From positions 1-30,337 of IMG/VR virus record IMGVR_UViG_3300033553_000287: DNA of 30,337 bases, one strand, 5' to 3'. Below are positions 5,357-30,337 of this stretch, piece by piece (the stretch's first letter is position 1; the number at the start of each line of letters is the position of its first letter). The stretch is from a virus. The notes beneath the pieces were generated by a model. It did not search any database. It worked only from the letters and a program-made list of their open reading frames with translations, and was not told the DNA's origin. The position numbers were made by a program, and so were the translations under genes.

Positions 5357-7008
5357 TGCCAGACCATCAGTGGGATTTGTTGAACGACACGACGCAATCG
5401 GCTAACTCTTACGAGGGTGCCAGTCACGTCAACCGAGAGCTCGCCATGTGGCACCCGGCTCTCCGATCCGCTGACGCTGAAATCCTGCCAGACAAAGATT
5501 CTCTGGACGCACGGTCTCTCGACCTGCAGCGGAACGATGGTTATATCCACGGTGCAGTCCAGAACCACAAAGATTCCATCGTTGGTGGCTTCTACCGACT
5601 CAACGCCAAACCGAACTTCAAGCATCTGGGTCTGAATGAAAAGTGGGCCGAGAAGTTTCAGGAAGCTGTTGAAGCCCGGTTCAGTCTTGCTGCCGAGTCA
5701 CCGGAATGCTGGTTCGACGCTTCCCGTCAGATGACATTCTCCGAAATGATCAGGCTTGCCATCGGCACATCCATGATGGCAGGTGAATCTCTCGGTACCG
5801 CTGAGTGGATCAAGAGCGGACGCCGGCCGTTCAAGACTGCGATCCAGATGGTTGACCCCATTCGACTGAGCAACCCTTACGGTGAGATCAACGATCTGAA
5901 CTGGCGCAAAGGTATCCGGTTCGACCCGCGTGGCCGGCCTATTGAGTATGCAATCCGGTACACCATGCCTGGCGACTTCTGGGAATTTAACAACCAGTAC
6001 CGCTGGAAGCAGATACCAGCACGGAAACCATGGGGTCGCAAGCAGGTCCTTCACTACTTTGAATCGTATCGTGTTGGCCAGAGCCGCGGTGTGAGTGACA
6101 TGGTGTCGATCCTCAAGCAGTCGAAGATGGTCGGCAAGTACCAGGACACCGTGCTTCAGAACGCTGTGTTGAATGCGACCTATGCAGCCGCCATTGAGTC
6201 CGACATGCCACCGGCTGATGCGTTTGAGTCAATCGGCGGGGGTGATGAGGGGCAAACCAAGTGGGCCGCAAACTACCTGAAGTCCGTAGCTGCTTACACC
6301 GGTTCCAGTAAGAACATGCACATCGACGGTATTCGTATCCCACACATGTATCCGGGTACGAAGTTGAAGTTGCAGAACGCCGGACAACCAGGGGGTGTGG
6401 GGACCGGGTTCGAGGAAAGCCTGTTACGCCATCTGGCGGCTGGTTTGGGGATGTCCTACGAAGAATTCTCGCACGACTTCACCAAAACCAATTATTCCAG
6501 TGCCCGGGCTGCAATGGGTGAAACCTATAAGCGTCTGCAGGGTCGCAAGAAAGCCGTTGCTGATAAGTTTGCCACGGACGTTTACCGGCTCTGGTTTGAA
6601 GAACAACTGAACTCTGGTGGGTTTGACGACATCCTGCCGGCCAATGCCCCCAACTTCTATGAAGGGCTCAATGCCGATGCGTATTGTGCCTGCTCCTGGA
6701 TCGGCGCTCCACGCGGCCAGATTGATGAACTGAAAGAGACGCAGGCGGCCATCAAACGTATCGAGGCAGGTTTGAGCACCTACGAAAAAGAGTGTGCCCG
6801 CTTTGGTGAGGACTTCCGTGAAGTCTTCCGCCAGAAGATGCGAGAGCAACACATGATTGATGACATGGGTTTGCGTCTGTCCTCGGGTGAGGACGGGTCG
6901 GGAACAATGGACGCTGGCGGTAACGCTTCCAACGAAAGCCCGAAGCGGGCAACCGCCAATGACGAACCCAAACCAGACGATAACTCGGAGGATGAAGACG
7001 ATGCCTAA
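5356..7008 (+). CDS. Portal protein (lambda gpB family)
   Basis: The dodecameric portal forms the head vertex through which DNA enters and leaves, and it nucleates capsid assembly. The 550-residue length is close to lambda gpB (533). Lambda-portal features include DLQRNDGYIHGAVQNHKDSI near the N-terminus, MVDPIRLSNPYGEIND, the SRGVSDMVSILKQ helix and YEEFSHDFTKTNYSSARAAM, which is strongly conserved across gpB-type portals. The C-terminus is acidic and low-complexity (DDNSEDEDDA). The start overlaps the gpW stop and the end overlaps the protease start by 8 nt (ATGCCTAA). Confidence 0.95.
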   Translation: MPDHQWDLLNDTTQSANSYEGASHVNRELAMWHPALRSADAEILPDKDSLDARSLDLQRNDGYIHGAVQNHKDSIVGGFYRLNAKPNFKHLGLNEKWAEKFQEAVEARFSLAAESPECWFDASRQMTFSEMIRLAIGTSMMAGESLGTAEWIKSGRRPFKTAIQMVDPIRLSNPYGEINDLNWRKGIRFDPRGRPIEYAIRYTMPGDFWEFNNQYRWKQIPARKPWGRKQVLHYFESYRVGQSRGVSDMVSILKQSKMVGKYQDTVLQNAVLNATYAAAIESDMPPADAFESIGGGDEGQTKWAANYLKSVAAYTGSSKNMHIDGIRIPHMYPGTKLKLQNAGQPGGVGTGFEESLLRHLAAGLGMSYEEFSHDFTKTNYSSARAAMGETYKRLQGRKKAVADKFATDVYRLWFEEQLNSGGFDDILPANAPNFYEGLNADAYCACSWIGAPRGQIDELKETQAAIKRIEAGLSTYEKECARFGEDFREVFRQKMREQHMIDDMGLRLSSGEDGSGTMDAGGNASNESPKRATANDEPKPDDNSEDEDDA

Positions 7009-8317
7009 ACCGATTGATTTGCGGTCGAGGCTGCTGAACCACCCTCTCATGATGTCACAGGAATGTGCTGAAGGGTTTGCTGCCCTGGCACCTGAGTCGT
7101 TCATGATCGAAGACCGATCCACCGAGGTGGGGGAGTTGATGTACGACTTTGCCTTCGGTGAGGGTCCACAGCGAAAGCCGTATCGGATGGTTGGTGATTC
7201 CGCGGTAATCCCGATCACCGGGACACTGTTGCATCGGTTTGGTGGTTCGTACTCAGGGGCAACCGGGTACGACTACATCAAGGCTGTTTTCGACATTGCC
7301 CTGGAAGACGAGGATGTGAAAGGCATCATCTTCGATGTCCACTCCGGTGGTGGTCAGGTTGATGGTGCTTTTGAACTGTCGGACCATATTTTCGCCAACC
7401 GGGATGTGAAGCCTTCCATTTCCGTGGTCAATGCACACGCTTATTCAGCCGCCTATCTGCTGGCCAGTGCAGCCGGCAAGATGGTGGTACCGAAGACCGG
7501 AGGTGCCGGGTCCATCGGTGTCGTAGTGATGCACATGGACGTATCCAAGGCACTGGACAACATGGGTGTGAAGATCAGCTTCATTCATGCAGGCAAGCAC
7601 AAGGTTGATGGGAACCCGTATCAGACATTACCCGAAGGGGTGCGGGAACGAATTCAAGCCCGGATTGACGAGTCATACAGTATGTTTACGGACGCTGTAG
7701 CGCGTTACCGGGGTTTGAGTACCGAGGCTGTGAAGGCGACAGAGGCACAGACATTCAGTGCCAAAGAAGCTGTCAGTCTCGGATTGGTGGATGCAGTTGT
7801 TTCTCCCTCAGAGGCAATAACCGCGTTCGTAGCCGAGTTGAACGGCGAATCACAGGAGAAGGATGCTATGGCAACTTCAAATAATGCCGCCACTGTAGCC
7901 GGTCAGCAGGCCGCGGACACAGGCGGTGAAGGTAAGACTTTTACCCAGGCTGATCTGGACGCTGCCCGGAGTGAAGGTATGACTGCCGGTACCAAGGCAG
8001 AACATGACCGGATTTCCGCAGTGGTGAACGGTGAACACTTCAAAGGACGTGAAGGTCTGGCGAAGAAAATGCTGGCAAACCAATCTCTTTCTGCCGACGA
8101 AATCAACGAAATGTTGTCGGAAGCACAAGCGGTTGTTCCTGAACAGACGAAGGCCAAGGGTGGTAATGCGTTTGAAGAAGCAATGGGTCAAACGCTGAAC
8201 CCGGAAGTCGGTGCTGAAAATCAGGAAGAACCTGGTGCTGAAGCAGGAGAAGACATTGGTGCCCGGATACTTGGGAACTATGCCAAGGCTTCTGGCCTGA
8301 AGTTCGAAACTAAGTAA
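7001..8317 (+). CDS. Capsid assembly protease with C-terminal scaffold (lambda gpC-like, S49 family)
   Basis: ClpP-fold serine peptidase that processes head proteins during prohead maturation. The length, 438 residues, is almost that of lambda gpC (439). FDVHSGGGQVDG (about 111-122) forms the oxyanion/strand region, and AHAYSAAYLLASAA carries the likely nucleophile Ser149. AGKHKVDGNPY supplies the candidate general-base lysine (Lys199 or Lys201). The SppA-like domain ends near residue 285. A helical scaffold-like tail follows (FTQADLDAARSEGM onward). ATG 7001 lies 9 nt after GGAGG (6987-6991); ATG 6992 abuts that site and is less likely. It overlaps the portal gene by 8 nt. Confidence 0.93.
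   Translation: MPKPIDLRSRLLNHPLMMSQECAEGFAALAPESFMIEDRSTEVGELMYDFAFGEGPQRKPYRMVGDSAVIPITGTLLHRFGGSYSGATGYDYIKAVFDIALEDEDVKGIIFDVHSGGGQVDGAFELSDHIFANRDVKPSISVVNAHAYSAAYLLASAAGKMVVPKTGGAGSIGVVVMHMDVSKALDNMGVKISFIHAGKHKVDGNPYQTLPEGVRERIQARIDESYSMFTDAVARYRGLSTEAVKATEAQTFSAKEAVSLGLVDAVVSPSEAITAFVAELNGESQEKDAMATSNNAATVAGQQAADTGGEGKTFTQADLDAARSEGMTAGTKAEHDRISAVVNGEHFKGREGLAKKMLANQSLSADEINEMLSEAQAVVPEQTKAKGGNAFEEAMGQTLNPEVGAENQEEPGAEAGEDIGARILGNYAKASGLKFETK
7868..8317 (+). CDS. Scaffold protein from an in-frame internal start (Nu3-like)
   Basis: In lambda, the scaffold Nu3 is translated from an internal start in frame inside gene C. The same layout is visible here. Met290 of the protease (ATG 7868) is preceded by GGAG at 7855-7858, 9 nt upstream, and begins MATSNNAATVAGQQ, exactly where the peptidase domain ends. 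The product would be 149 residues, rich in Ala, Glu, Gln and Lys with predicted helices, typical of scaffolds. Its stop is shared with the protease. The internal ribosome site is seen in the sequence; its use is inferred. Confidence 0.7.
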   Translation: MATSNNAATVAGQQAADTGGEGKTFTQADLDAARSEGMTAGTKAEHDRISAVVNGEHFKGREGLAKKMLANQSLSADEINEMLSEAQAVVPEQTKAKGGNAFEEAMGQTLNPEVGAENQEEPGAEAGEDIGARILGNYAKASGLKFETK

Positions 8318-8356
8318 TTGGTGTCGGGCTCTCATTAACTGAAGGGGAGAACACGT

Positions 8357-8731
8357 ATGAGCACTCTTGCTAGTACAGAAACAAATTCCTATGCGCCACC
8401 GGAGCTCTTTGCCGGCGATGCACAGGTCATCACCAACGCTCACCTGTTTAAAACAGGTCTGACGCTACCGATCAACTCGATTGTTGCGTTCGACACATCC
8501 AACGAACTGGTTGAATGGGCACCGGCTGCTGCTGATAGCACTGCTGATGCAGTTGGTATCACTACCGAAGCGGTCAACACCACAGGTGGTGCTGCTATCA
8601 ACCCGATCTACGAAGGTGGTTACTTTAACACCGCGGCGCTCAATTGGCCGGGAGCCACCACCGATGCTCAGAAAAAGCGAGCATTTGTTGGTACCAACAT
8701 TCACCACCGGTCGCTCGCTTACTCCGGTTAA
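8357..8731 (+). CDS. Head decoration protein (lambda gpD-like)
   Basis: Small trimeric protein that stabilises the expanded capsid. The 124-residue product (lambda gpD is 110) shows the family pattern: YAPPELFAGDAQVITN at the N-terminus, then SIVAFD and AVGITTEAVNTTGGA, and a C-terminal GYFNTAALNWP segment. A strong Shine-Dalgarno sequence (AAGGGGAG, 8342-8349) precedes ATG 8357, fitting a protein needed in hundreds of copies. It lies between protease/scaffold and major capsid, as D does in lambda. Confidence 0.9.
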   Translation: MSTLASTETNSYAPPELFAGDAQVITNAHLFKTGLTLPINSIVAFDTSNELVEWAPAAADSTADAVGITTEAVNTTGGAAINPIYEGGYFNTAALNWPGATTDAQKKRAFVGTNIHHRSLAYSG

Positions 8732-22510: not shown

Positions 22511-22695
22511 TCGTCACTCACCGGGACCTCAGAGCCCTCCGGTATTGTAACAATGGCACCCGGGAGTTCTTTAGGCGTCACAACCTGGACTGGTCTGAGT
22601 TCGTTAAAAACGGCTTGCCAGAAGAACAGTTCACAGCAACGAACGATGCAATGGCGATTCGCCTGGTCGAATTCGCACGGGAGCGTAGAGCATGA
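22507..22695 (+). CDS. Small conserved tail-module protein
   Basis: A 62-residue protein (MIVTHRDLRALRYCNNGTRE, then FFRRHNLDWSEFVKNGLPEE) of a type widely encoded just before J-like tail tip genes, sometimes annotated only as a virion protein. The sequence is helical, charged and has no membrane segment. It overlaps its neighbours by 4 nt on each side (ATGA), consistent with translation coupled to the hub gene. The family resemblance is clear to me from the LRALRYC, FF.RH.LDW and NDAMA.RLVE pattern; the biochemical role is unknown. Confidence 0.72.
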   Translation: MIVTHRDLRALRYCNNGTREFFRRHNLDWSEFVKNGLPEEQFTATNDAMAIRLVEFARERRA

Positions 22696-25094
22696 GTGGT
22701 GGTAAAGGCGGTGGTGAGGTAACGGTCGGTTACCACTATTACATGAACATGCACTTTGCTATCGCACACGGTGGTGTGGATGAACTCCTGGAAATCCGGA
22801 TTGGAGACCGTGCAGCATGGCGGGGGCAGATTTCCGGCGCTGGTTCTGCACTGGTCAATCAGGTCAATCTGTTTGGTGGTGAGGAACGTGAAGGGGGTGT
22901 TCTCGGTAATGTCGATTTCATGCCTGGTGAGCCGGCCCAACCCATGAACCCGTCCGTAAAGAATGCTGTTACCCGGGCAACCGGTTCCACCAACGTACCC
23001 GCCTATCGTGGCCTGAGCACTCTGTTCTTCAAGGGTTTTGATAACCTCGACATGACGGGTACGCCGTGGTCGGAGGTGAACAAAGGTGAACTTGACAACA
23101 GTCCAGAACTTCCCGCTTTCACAAGTTTTTCGGATCTCCTGGATAAGATTAGAGCAATGAGTGCTTGGAGGTCCCTGGCACGGTCCTCGTTCCTGTGGTC
23201 GGCAATGAATCCTTATTTCAAACCACCCACCTTTCTCATCCGTCGGGTCTGGAAGGGCTGGTATCCGGAAAAGGCTCAGATCGGTGAGGACGTAAACCCC
23301 GTTCACATCATCTATGAGTGCCTGATCAACAAGTCGTGGGGGTTGGGTTACCCTGTTCAGGACATTGACGATGCCAGCTTCCGTGCGGCCGCTGATGTTC
23401 TTTTCAATGAGGGTTTCGGGCTTTCAATGAAGTGGACCAACTCGACACGGGTCCAGGACTTCGTTCAAATGGTGAACGAACATATCAACGCCAACCTAAT
23501 CGAGGACCGGGATACAGGTCAGTGGCGGATAATCATGGTCCGCGATAACTACAACGCGGCGAATCTGTTTGAGCTCAACGAGAGCAATTGTGTTCTTGAC
23601 GAGTTCCAGAGGAAGACCACCGGTGAGACGATCAACGAGGTGGTTGTTGCCTACACCCGGGCGGAAGACGGGGAGACCGACACCGTTACTGTTCAGGACC
23701 TTGCTAACTTCAGTAACACCGGGCAGATCAACTCCCAGAAGAAAGAGTACCCGGGCATCCGTAGTCCTGAAATGGCATTCAGAATTGCACTCAGGGACCT
23801 CAATACCCTGTCGAAGCCGGTGGCGAAGTGTACCATCCGCTGTAACCGGGCGATCATGGGTCATTACCCCGGCGATGTGGTAAAGATCAACTGGCCGCGC
23901 CTCGGACTGAACGGTGTTGTCCTCCGGATCGGCAGGATGAACCTGGGTAACCTGACCAAAGGTGAAATTCAGGTCGAGGCCATCGAGGATGTGTTCGGTC
24001 TGCCCCAGAGCAGCTACGTCCGACAGGAACCGATAGGGTGGGTAGACCCGGCGAAGAATCCCGAACCTGTGACCGAACAGAAGCTCTACGAACTGAGTTA
24101 CCAGGAGCTTTACACGTCAACCAGTTCAGCAGATCGCCTGGACTGGCCGGACGACGTTGGGTTCGTGGCCGTGTCGGCACTGGCTCCGAATTCAGATGCT
24201 TCGACACTGACACTGCATGACAATGTGACCGAGGAATCAGTAGGTCACGGGGAGTTCACCCCGGCATTGCAGTTGACCCAGGCCACCGGTTATCTCGACT
24301 CTGTTCTCCATGTGGACTTTTCGACCTTCGATGTGCTGTTGCTGGCAGAAGGCGGGTTGGCCTGGTTGGGTAATGAACTGATCGAGGTTACGGACTTCGA
24401 CACCGTTGAGGAAACCATCACAGTCAACCGGGCACTCATTGACACGGTGCCTGCAAAACACCCCATTGGTGAAACGTTGTGGTTCTACCTGGGGAATGAC
24501 AACACCCTCGATGACACTTTGCGGGTGGATGGTGAGGTAGTTGATTACCGGCTCCTGACTGAGACATCCAAGGGGAAACTGGAAACATCACAGGCACCGG
24601 TGGTCAGTTACACCCTGCAGAACCGCCAGTTGAGACCTTACCGACTGGGTAACCTTTATGTGAACGGGCAGTCGTTCCCGTCAATTCTACCGGCTGATCA
24701 GAACATGATGTGGTCCTGGTCTCACCGGGATCGTACTCAGGAAGTGACTGAGCAACCAACCTTATTTTCGGCGGGTAACATCGGCCCGGAAGCAGGGGTG
24801 ACTTACACTCTGGAAGTGATCAATGAAGACGGTGTGACTCAGTTAGCGGAACCCGGTCTGGCCACTACTCAGTATGAGTACACAACTGAGGCGGCTGACC
24901 TTGGGAAATATGAACTGTCACCGAGTGGAATTTTCACAACAACAGATGCAGGGGTTGTACCGGCTCTGCGACGAAACACCGAACTTCGGTTCAAACTGAA
25001 ATCAGTCCGTGATGGACTGGATTCGTTCCAGGAACACGATGTGACTGTCGAACGGGCCGGATATGGGTACAATTATGGGTTGGTGGCACCATGA
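22692..25094 (+). CDS. Tail tip/host specificity protein (J-like hub)
   Basis: The 800-residue central hub protein forms the tail tip and contacts the host receptor or starts the channel. The start (MSGGKGGGEVTVGYHYYMNM) is characteristic of this phage J-like family (Phage-tail_3). Residues ~75-180 carry VPAYRGLSTLFFKG and MNPYFKPPTFLIRRVWKG, typical of the hub fold. ECLINKSWGLGYP and the long phage-tail_3-like region follow (VNEHINANLIEDRDTGQWRI). The C-terminal ~300 residues are beta-rich, probably fibronectin-like (YTLEVINEDGVTQLAEPGLA). The stop overlaps the homing endonuclease start, suggesting that gene entered cleanly at the gene border. Confidence 0.9.
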   Translation: MSGGKGGGEVTVGYHYYMNMHFAIAHGGVDELLEIRIGDRAAWRGQISGAGSALVNQVNLFGGEEREGGVLGNVDFMPGEPAQPMNPSVKNAVTRATGSTNVPAYRGLSTLFFKGFDNLDMTGTPWSEVNKGELDNSPELPAFTSFSDLLDKIRAMSAWRSLARSSFLWSAMNPYFKPPTFLIRRVWKGWYPEKAQIGEDVNPVHIIYECLINKSWGLGYPVQDIDDASFRAAADVLFNEGFGLSMKWTNSTRVQDFVQMVNEHINANLIEDRDTGQWRIIMVRDNYNAANLFELNESNCVLDEFQRKTTGETINEVVVAYTRAEDGETDTVTVQDLANFSNTGQINSQKKEYPGIRSPEMAFRIALRDLNTLSKPVAKCTIRCNRAIMGHYPGDVVKINWPRLGLNGVVLRIGRMNLGNLTKGEIQVEAIEDVFGLPQSSYVRQEPIGWVDPAKNPEPVTEQKLYELSYQELYTSTSSADRLDWPDDVGFVAVSALAPNSDASTLTLHDNVTEESVGHGEFTPALQLTQATGYLDSVLHVDFSTFDVLLLAEGGLAWLGNELIEVTDFDTVEETITVNRALIDTVPAKHPIGETLWFYLGNDNTLDDTLRVDGEVVDYRLLTETSKGKLETSQAPVVSYTLQNRQLRPYRLGNLYVNGQSFPSILPADQNMMWSWSHRDRTQEVTEQPTLFSAGNIGPEAGVTYTLEVINEDGVTQLAEPGLATTQYEYTTEAADLGKYELSPSGIFTTTDAGVVPALRRNTELRFKLKSVRDGLDSFQEHDVTVERAGYGYNYGLVAP

Positions 25095-25726
25095 ATCCAG
25101 GGGATAAGTTCCACAGGTTGACCATACTCAAGGTTAAAACCGACACTTTTAATGCAAAGAGGCAGTTTTACCCTAACTGTCTAGTTCAGTGTGACTGTGA
25201 TGTAACGAAAGAAGTAAACCGGGGTAATGTGAGTCGAGGGTTGACTAAAAGTTGTGGTTGCCTATTCAAGGAAGTGATGAGTGATGCCAATGGTACACAC
25301 CGGATGTCAAACTGCCCTGAATATGGTGTCTGGCTCTCAATGAAGTCGCGTTGTAAACACAAGTCGCAAGTCTCATTCAGGAACTATGGTGGCAGGGGAA
25401 TCAAGGTCTGTGATCGCTGGCAATCCTTTGAGAAATTCTACAGTGATATGGGTGAACGTCCATCACCTGATCATCAGATTGAGAGATTGGACAACGATGG
25501 TGATTATGAACCTGGGAACTGCACCTGGGTGTTGAGAAAGGCTCAATGTAGGAATAGAAGGTCAAACAGGAAGATAATGTTCCGAGGCGAAACTAAGACA
25601 CTTGTTGAGTGGTGTGAGATCATGGAAATTGACTACAACATGGTTGAGCAACGACTCAGGGTTTTACATTGGTCACCTGAACGGGCTTTAACAGAACCAA
25701 GTAACTATTATGGAGGGGTGGTCTGA
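25091..25726 (+). CDS. Free-standing HNH-type homing endonuclease
   Basis: A 211-residue site-specific nuclease of the phage group with three parts. The N-terminal zinc-binding unit has QCDC (C34, C36) and SCGC (C55, C57). The catalytic core runs MKSRCKHKS, FRNYGGRGIKVCDRW (about 97-110), then DHQIERLDNDGDYEPGNCTW (about 127-146), with H128 and the Asn/Asp residues as likely metal ligands. The C-terminal NUMOD-like helix-turn-helix has GETKTLVEWCEIMEIDYN and HWSPERALTEP. Base use is visibly more A/T-rich than in flanking tail genes (many AAG, AAA, AGG codons), a sign of transfer. It sits between the hub and DGR fibre genes, overlapping both by a few bases. No intron is associated. Confidence 0.8.
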   Translation: MNPGDKFHRLTILKVKTDTFNAKRQFYPNCLVQCDCDVTKEVNRGNVSRGLTKSCGCLFKEVMSDANGTHRMSNCPEYGVWLSMKSRCKHKSQVSFRNYGGRGIKVCDRWQSFEKFYSDMGERPSPDHQIERLDNDGDYEPGNCTWVLRKAQCRNRRSNRKIMFRGETKTLVEWCEIMEIDYNMVEQRLRVLHWSPERALTEPSNYYGGVV

Positions 25727-27954
25727 TGCCAGCCAAGCAAGAACCGAACATTGGAATTAACTACGGTTGGGCAGGCGGGGAGTCTGGGATCAACCTGCAG
25801 TTGGATGAGAACTGGCGAGCTATCGGGGCTCTGTTACAACTTTCTGTTATCTCGAAAACCACTGATGTTCCGACTACCCCTGTTGACGGGGACCGGTACA
25901 TTATCCCCTCGGGAGCTACTGGTGCCTGGTCCAGCCACGATGGAAAGGTGGCCCGGTACAATGAAGCAACATGGGAGATTTACACTCCACTGAAAGGCTG
26001 GCTGGCTTACATTGACGATGAGGCAGTTGACGGTCAGTACCAATTCTTCGACGGTACTAACTGGGTTCCGGCTCCGATTGATGATGCCGGTCAGGTAGCC
26101 TACAGCAACCTGTTGTCCGGACTCACTGCCATTGACGTTCAATCCGCCATTGACGAGTTGGCAGACCGACCCCTTGGTGGTGGTGTTCAATCCGTAGACG
26201 GGAAGACCGGAGAAGTCGATCTCTCCGGTTCCTACGAAGCCAAGCGTAAGAACAATCTGAGTGCCACCACGGACCCTGCAGTGACCGATGACAGCAGCCT
26301 GGGGTACGAACCCCTCTCCCGGTGGATCAACACCAGTACGGGTGAAATCTGGCTGTGTGTTGATGCAGCAGCGGGTGCGGCTAACTGGCAGAAGGCGTCC
26401 CTGACACTCGATGAGTTGGGCAGTGCTGCTGTTGTCGATGTGGGTGTTACGGCATCCCAGGTGCCCCAGAACAGTGATCTGGGTTCTGCTGCTTATACCC
26501 CGTCAACCGATTACGAAGTATCCGGGGCCGTCGCCACCCACGAAGGTAAAACCGACCCTCACAACCAGTACGTTCAGAAGGTGACAGGTAAAGGTTTGTC
26601 CACCGAGGACTACACCACGGCTGAACAAACTAAGCTGGCGGGTATCGAGTCCGGGGCCGAAGTCAATGCGGTAGACACGGTGCAGGGTGAGACCGGTGAT
26701 GTGGACCTGTCCAATTACTTTGAGCCCCGACGCTCTGCCAACGTGGTCTGGGACTCAACATCAGACACTTACAGCCGGGACGGACTGACCACCGGGGTCA
26801 CACCAATCCACGAACGGATGCGCCGTTGCCTGCTCAATGACGACGGCACGGTGAACTATCACCTTGACCCGAACGACTCGACACTCAAAGCCGATGGGAC
26901 TGCTGCCGTACTGGATGGTACCGATGGTCAGGTGATGGTCGAGATTCCCAAATGTTATGTCCGTGTGACCAAGCTGTTCAACGGTGACATTAAACGTGAG
27001 ATCAGTGAGTACCCTAGATCGGGTTTTGTACTGCACCCTGAGTTCGCAGTGGGCGGCACCCTACAACACGATCCTGCGTTGGACATGTGGTATTACACCA
27101 ACCCGACCGGTGAAAAGTCAGCCACTTACGTTGGCGCGTATCAAGCATCCGTGTATGACACCAGTGGTGCTGCGTACATCGACGGTCTGAACCTCGACAA
27201 TAACGACAGCCGGGTAGACTACACCGCTGACATCCTGGGTTCTGTATCTGGTAAGTACCCGATGGTCGGTGTCACACGGGCACAGATGTGGCAGTTGGCC
27301 GGTAACCGGGGTGCAGATTGGAGTCAGTGGACGTTCTGGCAATGGTCGCTGGTGAAACTGCTGTTCTTCGTTGAGTACGGTGGGTTCGATGGTCAGTCAC
27401 TCTTAGCTGCCGGTAATGACAATGTCAGCACAGGGTATCAGGCTTCGTCATCCAACCAGACGGATTCGCCTCACTCGATTGCCGGTAAGTCCAATGTTAT
27501 TGGTAACGGTTCAGGTGGTGTAGCCAGTTCTGTACGCGATACGGCCTGGATGAGCTACCGGGGCATTGAAAATTTCTGGGGTAACACGTGGCAGTTCTGC
27601 GACGGTTTTAACGTCAACGACTGGGTTTGGTATGTCAGTAATGACCCTGCCACCTTTGGTGATGACACGACCACCGGGTACAACCAACTCGGTGTAGCTG
27701 CACCATCGTCAAATGGGTACATCCGGAATGTGCAGCACAACACCCTCGGTGATGTCGTAGCCGACTCAACGGGCAATTCTTCAACCGCGTTTGCTGATTA
27801 TTACTATCAGAATCCAGGGTGGAGAATGCCCCTTGTGGGCGGCCACGCGACCAATGGCTCTCTTGTCGGCCCGTCGTGTGTCTCTGTGTATTATGATTCC
27901 GGGAATCGCAATCGTCTTATTTCCGGGCGGCTTGCTTTCTCCAAACCCCAATGA
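25726..27954 (+). CDS. Tail fibre/adhesin with DUF2793 N-terminus and DGR-variable C-type lectin end
   Basis: A 742-residue receptor-binding protein. Residues 1-115 are a DUF2793 domain (ENWRAIGALLQLSVISKTTD; WEIYTPLKGWLAYIDDEA), used by fibres to attach to the tail tip. The middle resembles repetitive fibre sequence (ALTAIDVQSAIDELAD-type; LSTEDYTTAEQTKLAGIESG). From about residue 500 a formylglycine-enzyme/C-type lectin-like fold is suggested (YRGIENFWGNTWQFCDGFNV, then YYYQNPGWRMPL). The final 37 residues (702-738) are encoded by the variable repeat. Eleven residues differ from the template through adenine changes: 703, 706-708, 713, 720, 722, 723, 731, 735 and 738. The stop codon lies in the loop of a hairpin. 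The gene overlaps the endonuclease gene by one base. Confidence 0.88.
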   Translation: MPAKQEPNIGINYGWAGGESGINLQLDENWRAIGALLQLSVISKTTDVPTTPVDGDRYIIPSGATGAWSSHDGKVARYNEATWEIYTPLKGWLAYIDDEAVDGQYQFFDGTNWVPAPIDDAGQVAYSNLLSGLTAIDVQSAIDELADRPLGGGVQSVDGKTGEVDLSGSYEAKRKNNLSATTDPAVTDDSSLGYEPLSRWINTSTGEIWLCVDAAAGAANWQKASLTLDELGSAAVVDVGVTASQVPQNSDLGSAAYTPSTDYEVSGAVATHEGKTDPHNQYVQKVTGKGLSTEDYTTAEQTKLAGIESGAEVNAVDTVQGETGDVDLSNYFEPRRSANVVWDSTSDTYSRDGLTTGVTPIHERMRRCLLNDDGTVNYHLDPNDSTLKADGTAAVLDGTDGQVMVEIPKCYVRVTKLFNGDIKREISEYPRSGFVLHPEFAVGGTLQHDPALDMWYYTNPTGEKSATYVGAYQASVYDTSGAAYIDGLNLDNNDSRVDYTADILGSVSGKYPMVGVTRAQMWQLAGNRGADWSQWTFWQWSLVKLLFFVEYGGFDGQSLLAAGNDNVSTGYQASSSNQTDSPHSIAGKSNVIGNGSGGVASSVRDTAWMSYRGIENFWGNTWQFCDGFNVNDWVWYVSNDPATFGDDTTTGYNQLGVAAPSSNGYIRNVQHNTLGDVVADSTGNSSTAFADYYYQNPGWRMPLVGGHATNGSLVGPSCVSVYYDSGNRNRLISGRLAFSKPQ
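27830..27939 (+). repeat. DGR variable repeat (VR)
   Basis: 110 bp at the 3' end of the fibre gene align without gaps to 28027-28136 (offset 197). Hand counting gives 18 mismatches. Seventeen are at template adenines, changed to C, G or T, out of 28 adenines. One is at a non-adenine (template G28093, here A27896). Most changed codons are AAT or AAC in the template, as in known DGRs. Confidence 0.93.
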
Positions 27955-27961
27955 GGGGTTT
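27943..27961. promoter_or_regulatory. Hairpin/cruciform just downstream of the variable repeat
   Basis: AAACCCC (27943-27949) and GGGGTTT (27955-27961) form a perfect 7-bp stem around AATGA, which contains the fibre stop codon. DGRs such as that of phage BPP-1 need a GC-rich hairpin or cruciform directly after the variable repeat for efficient retrohoming. This hairpin starts 3 nt after VR. It could also serve as an mRNA 3' hairpin, but no U-run follows. Confidence 0.7.
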
Positions 27962-27966
27962 ACAAC

Positions 27967-27972
27967 TATAAT
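27967..27972 (+). promoter_or_regulatory. Consensus -10 hexamer before the template repeat
   Basis: A perfect TATAAT lies between the hairpin and TR, about 55 bp upstream of TR, and could start a template RNA. No convincing -35 box is seen 16-18 bp upstream (the site falls on the hairpin), so the promoter is tentative. Confidence 0.35.
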
Positions 27973-28402
27973 TAGAGTAGTAAACTAACAGTGGGTATCG
28001 GGGTGGCAACACCAAGGATCAGGTGGCCCATGTAGGCAGCAACACGACCAATGGCTCTAATGTCGGCCCGTCGTGTGTCAATGTGAATAATGGTTCCGGG
28101 AATCGCAATCGTAATATTTCCGGGCAGCTAGCTATAGAGACTAGGAACGGCACCCGAGTCCGGCCGAAAGGCGAAGACGCATCCCATTGGAGCCTAGTAG
28201 GTCACAACATGTGTCTCGAAACGCTCGGGTGCTGTATAGCAACCACAAAGGCACGACGGTATCAAACTCAGGCAGTCAATCGTGGACCGGTTCGATGTGG
28301 CAGTAGAACAAGCGATAGTGCCGAGTATCATTTCATACTGGGGTTGGATCAAACCGTTGAATAACCTTGGTTTGTGGCAAAAAGCGAAAGAGGTATTAAG
28401 AC
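27973..28402 (+). ncRNA. DGR template RNA region (TR with structured flanks)
   Basis: This 430-bp stretch without a convincing gene holds the template repeat and flanks with RNA-like structure. GGTG-GCAA-CACC (28002-28013) is a hairpin with a GNRA loop. GCACCCGAG (28150-28158) pairs with CTCGGGTGC (28224-28232) as a 9-bp stem enclosing 65 nt. Inside it, GCC-GAAA-GGC (28163-28172) is a second GNRA hairpin. In known DGRs the RNA 3' of TR is structured and primes mutagenic cDNA synthesis. The outer limits are not defined by the sequence. Confidence 0.6.
28027..28136 (+). repeat. DGR template repeat (TR)
   Basis: Non-coding 110-bp partner of the variable repeat, with 28 adenines of which 17 differ in VR. 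In VR-equivalent phase it carries AAT or AAC codons at seven of the variable positions (28041, 28059, 28080, 28086, 28089 and 28113 among them). AAY is the codon type that DGRs favour because adenine mutagenesis cannot create stops from it. An open frame across it (28023-28364) is a by-product of VR ancestry. Confidence 0.93.
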
Positions 28403-28434
28403 ATGAAAACGTCAAAAACGCACTCACCTGTTGA
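28240..28434 (+). pseudogene. C-terminal relic of a DGR reverse transcriptase
   Basis: After a TAG at 28237 the frame is open for 64 codons and ends at TGA 28432-28434. It reads GIKLRQSIVDRF, then VPSIISYWGWIKPLNNLG, then LWQKAKEVL. DGR reverse transcriptases end in a similar way: a basic helix after the FLGY motif, then an S-[YW]-x-G-W-x-K-like segment and a short helix. Phage BPP-1 Brt ends LASWSGHAQWADTHNLF in the same place. The segment lies just downstream of TR, where the RT belongs. No polymerase motifs (such as YxDD) occur in any frame between TR and here, so the bulk of the gene is missing. The 3' end overlaps the next gene by 32 nt. The match is by eye from memory; chance is possible. 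Confidence 0.5.
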
Positions 28435-28993
28435 ACTTCCCACTTATCAACTAATGGGTAGAAAACTGAAAATCAACTTCGACCATCAGACTAAGCAAGT
28501 CGAATCGACCGGTGGTGTCGAAACCCAACATGTTTACACCACCGCTCAAGTGGATAGGTTGGCGGATCGCAACACCATTATTGAAGAAATAATGAAAACG
28601 AACTACCCGACTTTTGGCAGTGAGATAGCTTCCTTGCAAGGTGATCCTGAAAAAGAAGCGCAACACTCAATGTTAAAGAAACTCGCGAAAGACCTTGCTT
28701 CTTACTGGGTCAATACTGCCGCCGTTGATCCGAATTATTACCCGGTAAAGATGACACCGGATAGAGTAACCATGAGGCAGGCCAGACTTGCCCTGGCTAC
28801 AAACGCTTTACTGCAAAACGTAGAGGGTGCGATAGCCGGTATGGCCGAGCCGGACAAAACCAATGCCACGATTGAGTGGGAATATTCTCAGTATGTGGAT
28901 AGAAATAAAGAGTTTGTGGCCACCCTGGGTTCGGCTCTTGGATTGAGTGATGTTCAACTAGATGATCTGTTCATACAGGCGGCAGCGTTATGA
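28403..28993 (+). CDS. Fibre-associated phage protein (XkdW-like C-terminal pattern)
   Basis: A 196-residue soluble protein behind the DGR cassette. The N-terminal half is polar and unrecognised. The C-terminal half follows a pattern common in proteins encoded next to tail fibres: MRQARLALATNALLQNVEGA, then ATIEWEYSQYVDRNKEFVAT and ALGLSDVQLDDLFIQAAAL. The role is unknown; proteins of this sort are often suggested to be fibre accessory or assembly factors. AAAGAGG (28387-28393) precedes ATG 28403. The start lies inside the reverse transcriptase relic frame, so this junction may mark the deletion or an old overlap. The next gene starts on its stop (ATGA). Confidence 0.65.
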   Translation: MKTSKTHSPVELPTYQLMGRKLKINFDHQTKQVESTGGVETQHVYTTAQVDRLADRNTIIEEIMKTNYPTFGSEIASLQGDPEKEAQHSMLKKLAKDLASYWVNTAAVDPNYYPVKMTPDRVTMRQARLALATNALLQNVEGAIAGMAEPDKTNATIEWEYSQYVDRNKEFVATLGSALGLSDVQLDDLFIQAAAL

Positions 28994-29415
28994 AGGTCCA
29001 CTTCTGTCGATCTAACACCCTGGGTGGATGGCTCATTCGCCTGTTCACCTTCTCCAACTGGAACCATGTTGCAATCGAAGTCGGCGGTAACGTGTATGAG
29101 TCGCTGGCTACCAAAGGTGTGATCAAGACCCCGGCTCACCGGTGCGGCACCTGGGGTGAAATGAAGATGGTGGAAGTTGACGTACCGAATCGGACCAAGG
29201 CCATTGTGTTCCTGGACCAGCAGGTGGGTAAGAAGTACGACTGGTTGGCGTTGATTGCTTTACCGTTCAGGACCACCTGGCAGAGCCCGCATAAATGGTT
29301 TTGTTCGGAGCTAGGTGCCAAGGCGTTGAGTTGTGGCGGTAAACCGTTCCGGTTCCCGTTCTATAGGGTGACACCGGCTCACCTGTATTTCGGGTTGAGT
29401 GATTTAGCGCAATAA
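28990..29415 (+). CDS. NlpC/P60-like permuted papain-fold protein (YiiX/YebB type)
   Basis: A 141-residue putative thiol peptidase or amidase. The order of motifs is that of circularly permuted NlpC/P60 proteins. A histidine strand comes first (WNHVAIEVGGNVYES, H about 27), then QQVGKKYDWLALI, and the likely nucleophile cysteine in KWFCSELGAKAL late in the protein (about residue 99). Such proteins act on peptidoglycan stem peptides or lipids. In phages they occur near tail tip or lysis genes. There is no signal peptide or membrane helix. It overlaps the preceding stop by 4 nt. Whether it helps entry, lysis or neither is not shown by the sequence. Confidence 0.7.
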   Translation: MKVHFCRSNTLGGWLIRLFTFSNWNHVAIEVGGNVYESLATKGVIKTPAHRCGTWGEMKMVEVDVPNRTKAIVFLDQQVGKKYDWLALIALPFRTTWQSPHKWFCSELGAKALSCGGKPFRFPFYRVTPAHLYFGLSDLAQ

Positions 29416-29416
29416 A

Positions 29417-29448
29417 CAACCAAAAGTGGTAAAACCGCACTATGGTTG
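29417..29448 (+). terminator. Imperfect long hairpin after the papain-fold gene
   Basis: CAACCA (29417-29422) pairs with TGGTTG (29443-29448), and inside it AGTGG pairs imperfectly with CCGCACT (one bulge) around TAAAA. There is no U-run, so it may be a weak terminator or a structure controlling the next gene. Confidence 0.35.
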
Positions 29449-29493
29449 ATAGTATTACGAAAACGCAATTCGTTTCAGTTGGGAGGTTGTGCC

Positions 29494-29946
29494 GTGGAGT
29501 TGTCGCCATTGCTGATGGCCGGTGGTTTCTTGCTTTCATTAGCAGGGTTCGCATGGGGCATCATCGTTGTATTGGACCGTAAATCGGGAGAACGCCACGA
29601 CCGAATGGAGACCCGCCATAGAGAGGAAATGAACGCGATTAAGCAAGAGCACGATTCGATCCGCCAGGATATTACAGACAAGCATTACCAACTGAACCTC
29701 GAACTGAACCTCGAACTGAAGACCATCCACGGTCGGGTCGATAAGGTGAAGGACCTGTACGTGAAGCAGGACGTTCACGACCGGGACATCATGAACCTCC
29801 GGGACTCCCTTTCTCAGTTCAGAACTGAAATCAAGCAAGACCTGGCAACAGGCATAGACGCATTCAACAACGGTCTCAATGCGATGAGACGTGAGTTCAC
29901 CGACTTCCTTATCAAGTTGTCCGACAGAAACGGTGATTCAAAATAA
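29494..29946 (+). CDS. Membrane-anchored coiled-coil protein, candidate lysis-module protein
   Basis: A 150-residue protein with one N-terminal membrane segment (LLMAGGFLLSLAGFAWGIIV, about 6-25) followed by a long charged coiled coil (RHREEMNAIKQEHDSIRQDI; DLYVKQDVHDRDIMNLRDSL). This outline fits inner-membrane spanin-like or holin-associated proteins, but no diagnostic motif is present. GTG 29494 is chosen because GGGAGG (29481-29486) lies 7 nt upstream and the membrane segment follows at once; the frame extends upstream to 29446 without a ribosome site. A 12-bp tandem repeat (29691-29714) encodes LNLE twice, inside the coiled coil. It precedes the DUF5675 gene by 12 nt. Confidence 0.65.
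   Translation: MELSPLLMAGGFLLSLAGFAWGIIVVLDRKSGERHDRMETRHREEMNAIKQEHDSIRQDITDKHYQLNLELNLELKTIHGRVDKVKDLYVKQDVHDRDIMNLRDSLSQFRTEIKQDLATGIDAFNNGLNAMRREFTDFLIKLSDRNGDSK
29691..29714 (+). repeat. 12-bp tandem duplication in coiled-coil gene
   Basis: ACTGAACCTCGA is present twice head to tail (29691-29702, 29703-29714) and begins a third time (ACTGAAG). It keeps the reading frame, adding four residues (LNLE). Replication slippage is the simplest cause. Confidence 0.8.
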
Positions 29947-29958
29947 CCGGAGTTCACT

Positions 29959-30337
29959 ATGGCTATTCTCCGACTCACCAGGTTCAACGACGGACCTGAG
30001 TTACCCTCCAAGGTTGCCGGCATGTTCGGCAGGCTCATTCTTCCTTCATATCGAGAGATTTTCACGGTGGAGCCACCCTGGGTGGGCAACAAACCGTTCG
30101 AGTCCTGCATTCCCGATGGTATTTACAAACTGAAGAAGCGGTTTTCTGGTGTCGTGGACAGGACAACCAACGGTAAGTACACCGAAGGGTGGGAGGTCAC
30201 CGGGGTACCCAACCGGACGTTTATCATGCTCCACCCTGGCAACTGGCCGCATAACTTCGAGGGGTGCATCGGTCCCGGTCTTACCTACGATCTGATCCCC
30301 GACGCTCAGGGGACTTACCGCCTGGGTGTTGGTCGGA
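29959..30337 (+). CDS. DUF5675-family protein, 3'-truncated by window end
   Basis: The frame from ATG 29959 stays open to the last base (126 complete codons). Pattern elements of DUF5675 are FTVEPPW, the ESCIPDGIYKLKK turn, VPNRTFIMLHPGNWPHNFEG and CIGPGLTYD. The H-x-GN...GC-I core looks like a small catalytic or metal site, but the family has no proven activity. DUF5675 genes are found in phage late regions near lysis genes, often as the candidate wall-active protein. GGAG (29949-29952) lies 6 nt before the start. The C-terminus is missing. Confidence 0.75.
   Translation, partial: MAILRLTRFNDGPELPSKVAGMFGRLILPSYREIFTVEPPWVGNKPFESCIPDGIYKLKKRFSGVVDRTTNGKYTEGWEVTGVPNRTFIMLHPGNWPHNFEGCIGPGLTYDLIPDAQGTYRLGVGR

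Follow-up and report, generated by a model that had tools for sequence, protein, structure and literature searches.

In the diversity-generating retroelement (DGR) of Bordetella phage BPP-1, the reverse transcriptase (RT) gene comes next after the template repeat (TR). Change in this system is adenine-specific and falls at the 3' end of a fibre gene, the TR lying just downstream (PMC3240598), as is the case in the locus described here. DGRs in which the RT has been inactivated while the variable repeat (VR) and the TR are intact have already been described: adenine-only VR/TR differences stand beside an RT gene broken by a nonsense mutation, an insertion element or a frameshift, and the combination is interpreted as very recent inactivation (PMC3521204). 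Adenine-type changes without an RT gene are also reported from cellular genomes, namely in DGR fragments of Nanoarchaeota (PMC4372165) and in targets of Treponema denticola, where the TR is absent too (PMC4891356). Both fossils and remote service are discussed for such RT-less sites in these two papers.

The window analysed here is an entire linear IMG/VR record of 30,337 bases, itself a fragment of a phage genome. It fits the kind of DGR relic in which the RT has been inactivated, i.e. an adenine-only repeat pair next to a disrupted RT gene. It differs from the cases in PMC3521204 in that the start codon and most of the RT gene are deleted, and in that the carrier is a phage, one that can be compared with an intact relative similar to it in gene order. 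We consider it likely that a tail-fibre DGR once worked in this phage lineage and that its RT was recently lost by deletion. The features on which this reading is built are as follows.

25726..27954, + strand: tail-fibre gene, the DGR target, 742 aa, with a DUF2793 N-terminal part and a C-terminal part that also occurs in DGR phages with other backbones
27830..27939, + strand: VR, at the fibre tip, with 17/28 template adenines and 1/82 other bases changed
27943..27961, + strand: inverted repeat just 3' of the VR, 7-bp stem and 5-nt loop, a doubtful target signal
28027..28136, + strand: TR, placed by repeat search and by alignment with the VR and with relatives
28137..28241, + strand: spacer from the TR up to the lost start codon of the RT; still aligns with intact relatives
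28242..28248, + strand: apparent deletion junction, about 7 bases against 797 bp in L128 (RT codons 1-266)
28249..28431, + strand: putative RT remnant, in the frame of the last ~57 residues of sister RTs
28403..28993, + strand: 196-aa gene (phrog_6034), which comes after the RT in L001

The VR is the 3' end of the fibre ORF and the TR lies beyond its stop codon. On re-alignment the two correspond over 110 positions without a gap, at an offset of 197, and both the coordinates and the counts given by a first-pass annotation of the window were recovered exactly: 17 of the 18 mismatches are at template adenines, leaving a single one among the remaining 82 bases (Fisher one-sided, 8.9e-12). That single mismatch, at position 27896, is a G in the template and an A in the VR. 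An independent repeat search returned the same pair as the longest direct repeat in 26000-30337 (110 nt, 85% identity), and no second adenine-biased repeat pair was found in the window on either strand at offsets of 90 to 5000 bases. The sequence pattern of the TR matched only in the records of two related contigs, L001 and L002, and Rfam gave no match at gathering scores. Over the first 35 codons, the readings of VR and TR give different residues at 11 places, as the annotation had stated; its remark that most of them derive from AAY codons is only just right, template AAY codons accounting for 6 of the 11. A DGR has left its footprint in this tail-fibre gene, and on these counts the earlier reading of adenine-specific mutagenic retrohoming stands. 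An adenine-biased repeat pair does not by itself demonstrate a working DGR.

RVT_1 has no match anywhere in the 30,337-base record, and an intact RT gene near the TR with the GxxxSQ motif is absent; what is present is a C-terminal remnant. A profile built from the RTs of L001, L005 and L019 matches the window only at 28252-28401, corresponding to profile positions 268-317 of 319 (E 8.3e-15), and alignment of the remnant with the L001 RT scores 126, the best among 1000 shuffles reaching 52. The remnant's frame ends at a stop codon at 28432-28434 and overlaps the next gene. It was placed by local protein and DNA alignments; a MAFFT alignment of the window with L001 misplaced it. Used alone as a query, the remnant returned no RT family in Pfam, PHROGs or NCBIfam, so it is recognisable only by comparison with the intact sister RTs. 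Its matches in the PDB, to pentatricopeptide proteins and others due to chance, were discarded. Alignment thus indicates that the RT gene of the window is deleted, with a stretch matching the last ~57 residues remaining. The window differs from BPP-1 in this deletion and also in that avd is not recognised: ORF 28403-28993, the ORF scanned, gave no avd match in Pfam, PHROGs or NCBIfam at E up to 1. Avd or a similar accessory protein is not present in all DGRs.

Intact cassettes define what is missing. Those of L128, L001/L002, L005/L006 and L019 resemble the window in fibre end, VR, TR and post-RT gene but differ from it in carrying complete RTs, some 317 to 323 aa long; where the distance was measured (L001, L005 and L019), 100 to 120 bases separate the TR from the start of the RT. 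In L001, a contig of 73.9 kb, a 319-aa RT begins 115 bases past the TR, and a gene homologous to window ORF 28403-28993 comes after it; L005 has a similar layout, and homologues of part of that ORF's product come after the RT in L005, L019 and L128. The RTs of L001 and L005 match RVT_1 above its cut-off. The RT profile of L001, L005 and L019 has as its best PDB match 8ub7 (E 7.4e-36), which we take to be the BPP-1 RT, followed by a group II intron RT (9e-14). The GxxxSQ-type motif reads IGNYISQ in L001 and L005, and IGNYVSQ in L128.

L128 is a contig of 4,734 bases found with the RT remnant as query. In it, the end of the fibre gene with the VR is followed by the TR and by an intact RT of 323 aa. 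Beyond the RT come, in this order, homologues of window ORF 28403, at half its length, and of ORFs 29446 and 29959; ORF 28990 is unmatched in L128. Window 27701-28241 aligns to L128 12-548 at 74.5%, and it is with base 548 that the start codon of the L128 RT begins. From there ~797 bases (RT codons 1-266) are missing from the window, ~7 bases of its own stand in their place, and similarity resumes at ~28249 in the RT frame. The right edge of the junction was set by protein alignment; at the DNA level the two align from 28262 onwards, with no change of register. Compared with several intact relatives, the window as assembled shows a deletion of the RT. TR RNA would formerly have been reverse-transcribed with errors at adenines, and the resulting cDNA would have taken the place of the VR in the fibre gene, at the tip. 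The RT would then have lost its start codon and roughly its first 266 codons, polymerase motifs included, to a deletion that left the VR, TR, spacer and neighbouring gene behind. Because the RT gene has been cut out, the fibre tip is probably frozen now, unless an RT arrives from elsewhere, lent by another element. We infer that the DGR of the window is at present inactive, and the earlier suggestion that the phage probably diversifies its receptor binding loses its footing as far as the phage's own machinery is concerned.

How recently was the RT lost? At the 9 non-adenine sites where the TRs of the window and L128 differ, the window VR carries the window base at 8 and the L128 base at none, while the L128 VR carries L128's own base at all 9. 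Against the L001 TR, the window VR has its own base at 17/17 divergent non-adenine sites and that of L001 at 0. The window VR thus follows its own TR, which shows, on the evidence of these sites, that TR-to-VR copying ran in the window lineage after it had separated from that of L128. A likeness of VR and TR could also come from ordinary recombination between them, but this would erase the adenine differences. Since homing ran in the window lineage after this split, we infer that the loss of the RT is relatively recent. The VR/TR difference accumulated since the last copying is 1/82 (one-sided 95% bound 5.7%), and the TRs differ at 9/78 non-adenine sites between window and L128 and at 17/77 between window and L001. 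The intact L128 itself shows 2/81 differences at other bases, next to 17/28 at adenines, between its own VR and TR (offset 196), so the 1/82 of the window is no sign of long decay.

The remnant adds to this picture. Compared with L128 over 46 codons, it has a pS of 0.79 and a pN of 0.20, and this excess of synonymous difference, at synonymous sites near saturation, hints that most of the divergence may have arisen while the RT worked. The remnant is identical to L128 at 31/46 residues and a nearby fibre stretch at 38/46. Singleton residues among the four sequences number 7 in the remnant, 0 in L001, 1 in L005 and 8 in L019, the counts of L001 and L005 being lowered by their closeness to each other. 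The lower identity of the remnant and its 7 singletons count against a very recent loss; the lower identity allows for some decay or for older divergence.

We also surveyed the wider fibre family. An adenine-biased pair is present in 14/26 loci (L014-L017, L019-L021, L023, L026-L028, L030, L033 and L035) and absent in 12/26 (L018, L022, L024, L025, L029, L031, L032, L034 and L036-L039), several of which end before the VR; L025, L031, L032 and L038 match to near the C-terminus, with neither pair nor RT within the locus. L001 and L002, identical over 12,348 bases, were counted once, as were L005 and L006, which differ at 2/8,957 bases; L033 lies within the record of L007. This gives 14 distinct records with a pair (12 among the surveyed loci, plus the window and L128), a count that leaves out L048-L127 and L129-L132. 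The RT is just downstream in 12 of them, the exceptions being the window and L020. RVT_1 is present in 11/24 related viral records searched, many of the other 13 being short fragments. L042-L047, six tail-gene relatives checked for RT and gene order outside the repeat scan, carry no RT of the L128/L001 kind, L045 ending inside the fibre. In L020 the VR lies at 6011-6081 and the TR at 6174-6244, with differences at 17/20 adenines and 0/51 other bases; its 34,022-base record has no RVT_1 match, and the similarity of its TR to the VR fades towards the 3' end. L026 (3166-3283) has its pair near an RT and shows 4/88 non-adenine differences, the most among the 14 records; it is perhaps a slowing DGR.

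The best surviving alternative to recent loss is that the DGR is non-autonomous, served in trans by an RT from the missing part of the genome, a co-infecting phage, a prophage or the host. TR and spacer have been kept and the VR/TR pair shows only 1/82 non-adenine differences, although recent loss would account for the same facts and nothing in the data calls for service in trans. The record is a fragment, so an RT could lie elsewhere in the same genome, but the closest complete relative identified, Marinobacter phage PS6, has no RVT_1 match in its full record. The BPP-1 RT, Avd and TR placed on a donor plasmid are reported to change a separate recipient (PMC3240598), and remote service of RT-less fragments has been suggested (PMC4372165); the 80 RT relatives kept from a scan of bacterial genomes, made with two short N-terminal patterns only, are however at most 48% identical over the matched stretch. 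The existence of a second RT-less pair, in L020, also speaks for service in trans, but the fading of its TR looks like decay. We judge service in trans unlikely. The broader proposal that RT-less cassettes such as those of the window and L020 are a recurrent working state in this fibre family, with the RT borrowed from co-infecting or resident elements, seems to us rather improbable.

It is also conceivable, and a shade more doubtful, that the deletion is an assembly artefact or a minority variant in a population with an intact RT. The window is a metagenomic contig, and assemblies tend to break at repeats near VR and TR; the junction, however, lies ~105 bases past the TR, outside the repeats, and has ~7 bases of its own, and its flanks keep their order with L128. 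The exact junction occurs in 0 other viral contigs, which says little, as the search excluded records very near the window. Finally, a plain duplication of the fibre 3' end without any retroelement, which the closeness and shared direction of the two copies might suggest, has next to no probability and is rejected on the base counts (17/28 vs 1/82), an RT remnant adjoining the pair and relatives holding intact DGRs at the same place.

If recent loss of the RT is the right reading, an RT-deleted DGR beside an intact relative of similar gene order amounts to a natural knockout. With it one could study for how long a hypermutating fibre remains fixed, whether losing diversification can be of advantage, and whether an RT acting in trans can serve cassettes that lack their own. 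No phage in which the RT is deleted, and which has an intact relative with much the same gene order, was met in the literature searches and in the passages covered (PMC3521204, PMC4372165, PMC4891356, PMC8144416, PMC5299996, PMC12629997, PMC12875486 and PMC3240598), which is not proof of absence.

The target protein has a DUF2793 match at its N-terminus, and residues 359-741 match phrog_5302, a tail protein. A structure model of the last 406 residues, computed from 15 sequences, has a mean pLDDT of 65, with the VR mostly below 50; at E <=0.001 it matches nothing in the PDB but three chains of 5vf4 (TaqVP), the best at E 3.5e-6 with a TM-score of 0.35. A profile search gave 5vf4 again, weakly (E 0.015). 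5vf4 is a DGR variable protein of Thermus aquaticus, and the C-type lectin fold is given as the common scaffold of DGR targets in the paper on it (PMC6328139). With modest confidence, the model suggests that the C-terminal part of the fibre resembles a DGR variable protein of C-type lectin fold. The annotation's proposal of a C-type lectin-like tip gains support to the same modest degree, the TM-score of the 5vf4 match being at most 0.35. The tip presumably binds a receptor. About 400 C-terminal fibre residues, 83% identical between the window and both L001 and L005, sit on differing N-terminal parts (ORFs 25726-27954 in the window, 5715-9353 in L001 and 1955-3712 in L005), an arrangement indicating modular exchange of DGR-linked tips between phages. 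No fibre relatives were found in bacterial genomes at the sensitivity of the scan used.

The inverted repeat after the VR has 4 G-C pairs in its stem, a loop of AATGA and a z of -1.20. The hairpin sought was of the phage type, with a GC-rich stem of 7-10 bp and a GRNA loop; the window repeat is without the 4-nt GRNA loop described in PMC3240598. As many as 19/200 shuffles fold equally well and a perfect stem of at least 6 bp follows the VR in 5/13 records only, so that such a stem is not general among the relatives; as a target signal, the repeat is doubtful.

As for the carrier, 25 of the 28 window ORFs tested match PS6 (MF959998, Casjensviridae) in collinear order, 42,227 of its 58,226 bases having been compared. 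The two genomes are collinear from primase to tail and again at 29446 and 29959, with 45-82% amino-acid identity outside the fibre; within the same compared bases, the PS6 fibre is similar to that of the window over the first ~128 N-terminal residues only (36%), and the HNH ORF described below, 28403 and 28990 have no match. Going by PS6, the host of the window phage would be Marinobacter. In the 17.5 kb of L001 compared, no genes resemble those of the window apart from the fibre end and 28403, so the cassette has moved between phage backbones. A search of named phages gave no close relative of the RT (140 records, all <60% identity).

Between the tail gene and the fibre gene, the window carries an HNH endonuclease-like ORF (25091-25726; phrog_374, E 3.2e-58), probably a homing endonuclease. 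In L045, a PS6-like contig, ~670 bases (7922-8595) interrupt the homologue of window ORF 22692-25094 near its end. L045 and L128, also PS6-like, have the same sample number in their names (3300028374). L045 ends inside a DGR-type fibre, and L128 opens within a fibre end that comes with VR, TR and RT; both may derive from a single phage whose sequence was split close to the variable region.
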